Made by a program: the position numbers and the translations under genes. Shown one piece after another: positions 52,681 to 54,779 of a stretch of DNA of 64,000 nt. The DNA is taken from contig CANOEC010000009.1 in the NCBI GenBank assembly GCA_947564735.1, positions 50,328 through 114,327 of the forward strand. The letters are read 5' to 3'. This stretch comes from an uncultured Lachnospiraceae bacterium. GTDB taxonomy: Bacteria > Bacillota > Clostridia > Lachnospirales > Lachnospiraceae. How positions within the stretch are numbered: the first letter of the stretch is position 1; the number at the start of each line of letters is the position of its first letter. A model generated the notes under the pieces. It saw only the letters and a program-made list of their open reading frames with translations. It was not told the origin of the DNA and did not search any database.

Positions 52681-53971
52681 CTATTGTATTTTAGACAACG
52701 CCTGTTCCAAATCTGCAATGATATCATCCACATGTTCGATGCCAACAGACAATCTGATCAAATCCGGAGCGACGCCCGCTTCTTTTAACTGTTCGTCATT
52801 CATCTGTCTGTGCGTATGGCTTGCCGGGTGCAGCACACTCGTCCTTGCATCCGCCACATGCGTCACAATAGCAGCTAACTCCAAGCAGTCCATCATCTTA
52901 GCCGCTGCCTCCCTGCCGCCCTTTAACCCGAAGGAAATCACGCCGCAAGTACCATCCGGCATATACTTGAGAGCATTCGCGTAATACCGATTGCTCTTAA
53001 GCCCCGGATAATTCACCCACGCAACTTTCTCATGGGCTTCCAGATATTCTGCTACTTTCTGCGCATTGAAACAATGACGCTCCATACGAAGCGACAGCGT
53101 CTCCAATCCCACATTCAGCAAAAAAGCATTCTGCGGAGACTGCATGGACCCTAAATCTCTCATGAGCTGCGTTGTCGCTTTCGTAAGATAAGCCGCCTTA
53201 CCGAACTTCTCCGTATAGATGATGCCATGATAGGATTCATCCGACGTACAAAGTCCCGGAAACTTGTCCGGATATGCACTCCAGTCAAAATTACCGGAAT
53301 CCACAATACAGCCGCCCAACGCCATGGCATGTCCATCCATATACTTCGTTGTGGAATGTATAACAATATCCGCACCCCATTTGATTGGATTGCAATTGAT
53401 TGGAGTTGCAAAAGTATTATCGACAATCAACGGCACCTGATGATCGTGCGCCACCTTGGCAAATTTCTCGATATCCAGCACAACAAGCGCAGGATTGGCG
53501 ATTGTCTCCGCAAAAACACATTACGCCGTTCTGAATATCTGTGAGGCGGGAGACCATATTGTATTATCGTCTACCGTATATGGAGGTACATTCGATTCCC
53601 ATCTTTTTCATGGTACAGGTAATCAGATTGAATGTACCTCCATATACGGTAGACGATAATACAATATGGTCTCCCGCCTCACAGATATTCAGAACGGCGT
53701 AATGTGTCGCTGCCTGCCCGGAAGACGTTAACATTGCCGCCACGCCGCCTTCCAGCTCACATATCTTTGCCGCCACGCAGTCGTTCGTCGGATTTTGCAG
53801 TCTGCTGTAAAAATATCCGCTTTCCTCCAGATCAAACAGTCTGCCCATCTGCTCCGAAGATTCATATTTAAACGTCGTGCTCTGATAAATTGGCAATACG
53901 CGCGGTTCCCCGTTTTTCGGCTGCCATCCCGACTGGATGCAGATTGTCTCTTTCTTATATGGTCTGTTCAT
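52681..53971 (-). pseudogene. metY: O-acetylhomoserine aminocarboxypropyltransferase, disrupted
   Basis: PLP enzyme of the Cys/Met metabolism family (O-acetylhomoserine sulfhydrylase). The N-terminal part (53971 to about 53592, MNRPYKKETICIQSGWQPKNGEPRVLPIYQSTTFKYES to MKKMGIECT) and the C-terminal part (from VFAETIANPALVVLDIEKFAKVAHDH near 53519 down to 52681, with the PLP lysine in HSTTKYMDGHA) are each intact. They lie in different frames. The roughly 24-codon connecting segment has been replaced by an inverted copy of the upstream coding sequence, which brings in stop codon TAA at 53564-53566. The start is ATG 53971 with GAGGAG nine bases upstream, overlapping the CFI-box gene by 17 bases. 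It is non-functional as written, unless the rearrangement is an assembly artefact. Confidence 0.88.
53516..53707. repeat. Perfect 78-bp inverted repeat inside metY
   Basis: Arms 53516-53593 and 53630-53707 are exact reverse complements, separated by 36 bases. The right arm is the original metY coding sequence (THYAVLNICEAGDHIVLSSTVYGGTF). The left arm is the intruding copy, and read on plus it spells the same protein segment. Confidence 0.97.
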
Positions 53972-54779
53972 CCTTATGCGCTCCTCTCCTGTCATGCCAA
54001 TTCGTCACCATGTACTCATTTTTTAACTCCGTCATCATCTGCTGATATAACTGCCGGCACTGTTCGTTTTTCTGCTGCTTTACTAACGCAACGCATCTGC
54101 TGATATAATTGTTCCACAAATACATGTATTTTTCTTCCGGATCCGCCTCTTTGGCAATGCGCTTTACAATCGTCGGTGCAATATCGTAGTATTCCTGTAT
54201 CAGCGCCTCCCCGTCTGCCTGTCTGAACATATATTCGTCTCTGTACTGCTTCATCAGAGCTATTTCCCGACAATCCTGAGGTTTATGTATTCCACAGCAC
54301 ACTGCCGTCGTCACGAAGCATAGCTTCTGCTTGAATCCGCTTTGAATCGACTCATAATCCGCCGCCTGAATACGCTGTCCGAACCGTTCTTCCCACTTCA
54401 TGCCGATGGCATCGGTCAGCTTACGCATTTCCTCTTCCCCGCCGCCACAGCGTCTCTGATAGGCAATGATTGCCGGAAGAAAATAGGACACCATATACAG
54501 ATTGATATTCATCTGCGCGGCATTTCTTTTCGCTCTTCCTTTTTTAGCATCAAGTAGTTCACTGGCTCTGTCAGCCAGACAGTCAGCCACCTGCCTTCTG
54601 TCCTTTTCCCTGTCTGGCATACTTCCATTCCATGTGTCTGCCAGCGTGGACCACACATGCGCATTATCATCCACATACTTTCTGAATGACGCCTGATAGG
54701 TCTCCTTCTTAAACTCAGCAATCCTTGCCGGTGCCTGTTCCAGCAGATCGGCTATCTGATTCAGTTCCGGTTTCTCCAT
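53955..54779 (-). CDS. Hypothetical protein with CFI-box-like motif
   Basis: 274-residue helical protein. Residues about 165-220 (CFVTTAVCCGIHKPQDCREIALMKQYRDEYMFRQADGEALIQEYYDIAPTIVKRI) resemble the CFI-box domain: C-F-x-x-T-A, an Arg-Asp pair and YY...P. No signal or membrane segment. A REKDRRQVADCLADRA segment sits near the N-terminus. ATG 54779 is preferred over the TTG one codon earlier. It overlaps metY and follows yebC by 23 bases. The function is unknown. Confidence 0.72.
   Translation of the reverse strand: MEKPELNQIADLLEQAPARIAEFKKETYQASFRKYVDDNAHVWSTLADTWNGSMPDREKDRRQVADCLADRASELLDAKKGRAKRNAAQMNINLYMVSYFLPAIIAYQRRCGGGEEEMRKLTDAIGMKWEERFGQRIQAADYESIQSGFKQKLCFVTTAVCCGIHKPQDCREIALMKQYRDEYMFRQADGEALIQEYYDIAPTIVKRIAKEADPEEKYMYLWNNYISRCVALVKQQKNEQCRQLYQQMMTELKNEYMVTNWHDRRGAHKDEQTI

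Follow-up and report, generated by a model that had tools for sequence, protein, structure and literature searches.

The Inverted Copy in metY

In the window, the whole 64-kb stretch of DNA that was analyzed, a metY gene is interrupted by a long inverted copy of a part of itself, and the question that the locus raises is whether metY has this form in the organism or whether the join was made in the course of library preparation or assembly. Positions 53516–53593 and 53630–53707 are exact reverse complements of 78 nt each, separated by 36 nt; the perfect arms and the 36-base spacing named in the preliminary description were borne out by an inverted-repeat scan, which, with a reach of 1.5 kb, found no other perfect inverted repeat of at least 15 nt in the window, the next longest being 14 nt. 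The folding energy of these 192 nt as single-stranded DNA is −99.1 kcal/mol, as compared with −18.5 kcal/mol (S.D. 3.1) for 200 shuffled sequences, and because the value lies so far below those of the shuffles, chance is excluded as an explanation. The disrupted gene is on the minus strand and both of its halves match TIGR01326, O-acetylhomoserine sulfhydrylase. Its 5′ part (53564–53995, minus strand) is an open reading frame of 143 amino acids with a stop inside the copy, and its 3′ part (52681–53481, minus strand) is open for 266 amino acids.

Alignment of the metY genes of relatives had been suggested as the way to the ancestral segment. Relative loci were given in two sets (19 and 80, 99 in all, with some genomes in both), and the same two anchors were located in each. 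Both anchors are present in 98 of the 99 loci, with a segment of 74 nt between them in every one of the 98, from which it follows that the left arm is the copy and the right arm its source. Judged from the frame, the inverted-repeat scan, and the relatives, the right arm (53630–53707, minus strand) is original, in-frame metY, and the left arm (53516–53593, plus strand) is its perfect reverse complement, standing where the 98 measurable relative loci have 74 nt of unrelated metY sequence of conserved length. The 36-nt loop (53594–53629, minus strand) is also original metY and aligns, in the relatives, directly before the replaced segment. The in-frame right arm and the substitution of the expected segment by the left arm had thus been recognized correctly; the size of the exchange, given earlier as 73 bases for about 66 expected, is corrected to a 78-nt copy for 74 nt. 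The copy therefore adds 4 nt, with the result that metY acquires the frameshift and stop that had been described, the upstream frame ending at its 143rd residue.

Inverted microhomology had been claimed for both junctions. In a comparison with 96 measured relative loci, the eight rows listed for the closest relatives represent five distinct genomes, as told by contig. Three of these rows, from two genomes, are identical with the copy over 7 nt at the outer junction (53516–53522, plus strand) and over 8 nt at the inner junction (53586–53593, minus strand, pairing with 53630–53637). The remaining five have 0–2 nt in common at the metY junctions (2 nt at the outer one), as expected at the divergence of these relatives, which are about 80% identical and none of which belongs to the same species. 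The claim accordingly stands for both ends against two of the five closest genomes, and the 9-mer proposed for the inner junction is supported for 8 nt. Matching positions between the copy and the replaced segment amount to 27–39% in the listed rows, and there was therefore no earlier palindrome across the arm.

Recurrence of Fold-backs in the Same Assembly

Together with the window, 100 stretches of the same genome were scanned for perfect inverted repeats of at least 24 nt within 1.5 kb; these 101 loci, three of which are all N, contain 1.61 million distinct 31-mers and make up a nonrandom sample of about 36% of the genome. Six fold-backs were found, with arms of 78–110 nt, all perfect, and loops of 12–58 nt, and none of the 101 loci contains arms of 24–77 nt. 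Besides metY (arm 78 nt, loop 36 nt, 78 nt in place of 74 nt), they are located at the end of a trpD-like gene with the Glycos_transf_3 domain and its N-terminal domain (L116; arm 92 nt, loop 33 nt, 92 nt replacing 88 nt by seven relatives measured of 11); in carB, identified by carbamoyl-phosphate synthase domains (L118; arm 80 nt, loop 12 nt, 80 nt replacing 92 nt, with eight rows listed of 11 measured); between penicillinase-repressor and M56 peptidase genes, a blaI/blaR1-like pair (L132; arm 83 nt, loop 58 nt, 83 nt replacing 72 nt by the one relative measured of nine); in a gene with PAS and histidine-kinase domains, where the frame ends in the HisKA domain (L148; arm 88 nt, loop 38 nt, 88 nt replacing 82 nt, with eight rows listed of 11 measured); and in a gene with a frame of 301 amino acids and no Pfam match (L263; arm 110 nt, loop 33 nt, 110 nt replacing 100 nt by the one, diverged, relative measured of seven). 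The lengths of copy and replaced segment differ by 4–12 nt across the six loci.

Microhomology at the junctions is found at both ends in carB (6 and 5 nt, in part of the eight listed rows) and at one end in the trpD-like gene (5 nt, two of seven rows) and the histidine-kinase gene (4 nt, five of eight rows), and was not seen at L132 and L263, at each of which a single diverged relative was measurable. Inspection by eye revealed no junction sequence common to the six loci. A BLAST search of the same sample for aged fold-backs found none, the remaining inverted matches being only 67–85% identical. A strand bias was rejected, the orientation with respect to GC skew being leading at four loci and lagging at two, which is uninformative.

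The same scan found no fold-back in 177 loci from relatives (1.22 Mb) or in 295 loci from IMG/VR viral contigs (2.55 Mb); for the relatives distinct 31-mers were counted, because their sets of loci partly repeat the same genomes. With the relatives alone, which make a weak comparison, the share argument gives a value of 0.034, or 0.054 without the window's own event. Inclusion of the viral contigs lowers these values to 0.0007 and 0.002, respectively, but it should be noted that they come from other organisms and that their assemblers are not known. The presence of six fold-backs in one assembly and of none in the controls therefore makes an artefact likelier than a cellular mutation. The preliminary description had offered fold-back template switching as its main reading, and the geometry on which this was based holds (a copy in inverted orientation, the exchange of a segment of similar length, microhomology at the two junctions, and a frameshift), whereas the idea of a single replication accident in metY is weakened by the five sister fold-backs. 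Its alternative of an assembly error is favored by the recurrence in the same assembly and the zero in the controls and, failing that, the recurrence would favor a genome-wide process.

A Probable Assembly or Amplification Origin

The contigs carry a signature of the way in which they were assembled. The 97 contig ends (five all N) include nine pairs with an overlap of exactly 55 nt and one pair with the first 55 nt in common; overlaps of 27, 46, 52, and 53 nt are found in four further pairs. The 55-nt overlaps are presumably the residue of a SPAdes-type assembly with k = 55. In all six fold-backs the arms are longer than 55 nt, and the difference in length between the copy and the replaced segment is less than 10% of the replaced length plus 55. 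For rnaSPAdes it is described that chimeric hairpins, likened to those of single-cell multiple displacement amplification (MDA), connect an edge with its reverse complement and may leave palindromic sequence in the assembly, and that bulges are collapsed under a length rule of 10% (PMC6736328). If, as we infer, the 10% rule and the graph logic of k = 55 apply to the present assembly, the size floor above k, the match in length, and the perfection of the arms would all follow, because a route through the graph would reuse the arm's own edge.

It is moderately probable that the metY fold-back is an inverted chimeric junction put into the contig by the assembler, and that metY does not have this form in the organism. 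In such a sequence of events, strands in the amplification or library reactions would jump, at microhomologies of a few nucleotides, to the nearby opposite strand; through the resulting junctions, the de Bruijn graph (k = 55) would gain edges between a stretch and its reverse complement; and a reverse-complement route of nearly the true length would then be retained over the true segment, leaving a perfect inverted copy longer than k. The recurrence, the length rules, the perfect arms, the 55-nt overlaps, and the zero in the controls support this interpretation. Chimeras formed by phi29 in MDA are likewise reported to join opposite strands in about 70% of cases, mostly with overlaps of 5–8 nt (PMC4595205). 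However, according to the same source, one jump is found in more than 95% of the chimeric read pairs of MDA, and the distance between the joined segments peaks at 250–300 nt; the interpretation is weakened because each locus would need two read-supported junctions and because the loops of 12–58 nt are much shorter than this peak. It is also weakened by the small contigs, which have no hairpin ends: none of the 38 readable ones, taken whole, contains an inverted repeat of at least 24 nt. The metagenome-assembled relatives show no fold-backs in the loci scanned, and the assembler alone is therefore insufficient as a cause. A direct account in the literature of such assembly errors in metagenomes was not found.

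Template Switching and Other Possible Cellular Explanations

The strongest competitor of an assembly artefact, which we regard as possible rather than probable, is that fold-back template switching really took place in this lineage, in a recent burst across the genome. At a short inverted repeat with an interruption, a nascent strand would come off its template; it would then be extended backwards by 70–100 nt, with itself or the sister strand as template, and would rejoin the original template after a similar distance, at a second microhomology. Extrapolation from six events in 1.61 Mb gives about 17 fold-backs genome-wide, of which metY would be one. Such a process would yield microhomologies equally well, and for part of the relatives these are seen at the two junctions of metY and of carB and at a single junction of the trpD-like and histidine-kinase genes; the match in length could follow if both pairs of seeds held one hairpin. 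The return to the original template, the lack of terminal hairpins, and loops as short as those of polymerase fold-backs agree with it also. Several of the affected genes can be dispensed with if nutrients are provided, and the genome contains another carB-like match. Template switching of the nascent strand is known in Escherichia coli, where it is described as being raised by AZT and fluoroquinolones (PMC7202029). On the other hand, a mutational process should leave shorter and older traces, but there are neither fold-backs with arms of 24–77 nt nor aged ones, and none is present in the 1.22 Mb of relatives scanned. There is also no obvious mutator: loss of exonuclease VII, RecJ, or SbcD was rejected as a source, the genes for the exonuclease VII large subunit, RecJ, and SbcD, the only ones considered here, being open frames without stops. 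The division of four leading to two lagging orientations does not decide the matter.

A more specific version, a burst of double-switch fold-back replication with a size rule of its own (arms of 78–110 nt, loops of 12–58 nt), near conservation of length, and several genes broken at once, is somewhat more doubtful, and would be unlike the quasipalindrome correction of E. coli. Short-patch double illegitimate recombination is a further candidate, which was set aside.

It is improbable that metY underwent an isolated real mutation and that the other five loci are to be explained otherwise. The metY junctions do show the clearest microhomology of the set, and the loss could be without harm to the cell, given a second, intact O-acetylhomoserine sulfhydrylase, but five loci of the same size class, following the same rules, make a separate cause for metY unlikely. 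A programmed or reversible switch, to which the long perfect inverted repeat lends some plausibility and which the preliminary description had raised as a recurrent state, is scarcely credible, since recombination between the arms only turns the 36-nt loop and cannot restore the replaced 74 nt, a search of the genome at the DNA level, with the 5′ half of metY as query, finds only the metY place, so that no source from which the lost segment could be restored is seen in the assembly, the 74-nt form is present in all 98 measured relative loci, and the six loci have no junction sequence in common by eye. A terminator or other regulatory hairpin was rejected, because at the site of the copy the 98 measured relative loci have coding sequence, 74 nt in length.

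Comparison with Known Systems

The closest known counterparts are the hairpins of SPAdes-type graphs and the inverted chimeras of phi29 MDA, in which, as the sources describe them, a stretch is joined to its own reverse complement at a microhomology of about 5–8 nt and a palindrome can result (PMC6736328, PMC4595205, PMC6515389). The present fold-backs differ from these in their return to the original strand, with two junctions per locus and loops of 12–58 nt, and it should be recognized that amplification of the sample is only presumed. Bacterial quasipalindrome template switching, as described, is similar in that the nascent strand is copied, the template is regained, and a more perfect inverted repeat is produced (PMC7202029), but in the present case short seeds give rise to long perfect arms, with no prior quasipalindrome of arm length (27–39% matching), and many loci fall in one size class. 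The mitochondrial genomes of Nematomorpha are reported to contain many perfect inverted repeats in coding genes, at a mean distance of 37 bp (PMC6649704); there, however, the genes are functional and conserved protein is encoded by both arms, whereas in the present loci the reading frame or a conserved segment is lost through the copy. Chimeric reads induced by microhomology during end repair are also alike, in that they arise in the library by extension of single strands that have folded back at inverted microhomologies lying close together, but in the account of them they are single-switch reads from formalin-fixed samples and not the consensus of a contig (PMC8674242).

Consequences and Additional Observations

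If the metY fold-back is an artefact, genes have been broken with clean, biological-looking junctions inside long and otherwise normal contigs, and false calls of auxotrophy or pseudogenes would follow in a genome with a listed completeness of 99.49%. Such fold-backs are detected in seconds if the sequence is scanned for perfect inverted repeats that exceed the assembly k-mer in length. If the fold-backs are real, they represent a genome-wide signature of template switching with a size rule, and the cell would retain an O-acetylhomoserine sulfhydrylase, since a second gene on another contig (L123) is intact, with 427 amino acids and a score above the TIGR01326 cut-off.

With regard to carB, a match of 70% over 218 nt is located at G000:C6:37595–37812, besides the carB that bears the fold-back, and on the basis of this similarity the genome probably has a second carB. 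A search against plasmids returned six records, of 60–80% identity.

The repeats of this genome also include a dispersed element in three copies (L134:16906–17223, L139:4371–4678, and L267:10366–10674) that are 94–96% identical over about 310 nt and have inverted ends with the motif CAGATTGCACAAATTGCTC. Each copy holds a full TwoAYGGAY RNA (RF01731, 105–109 bits), and in this genome the RNA seems to be carried by a small mobile element of MITE-like type. Five further single ends of the CAGATTGCACAAATTGCTC element are present elsewhere in the sample, and a cluster of diverged direct and inverted repeats, 73–90% identical, at L147:9475–11457 includes one copy of the end motif.
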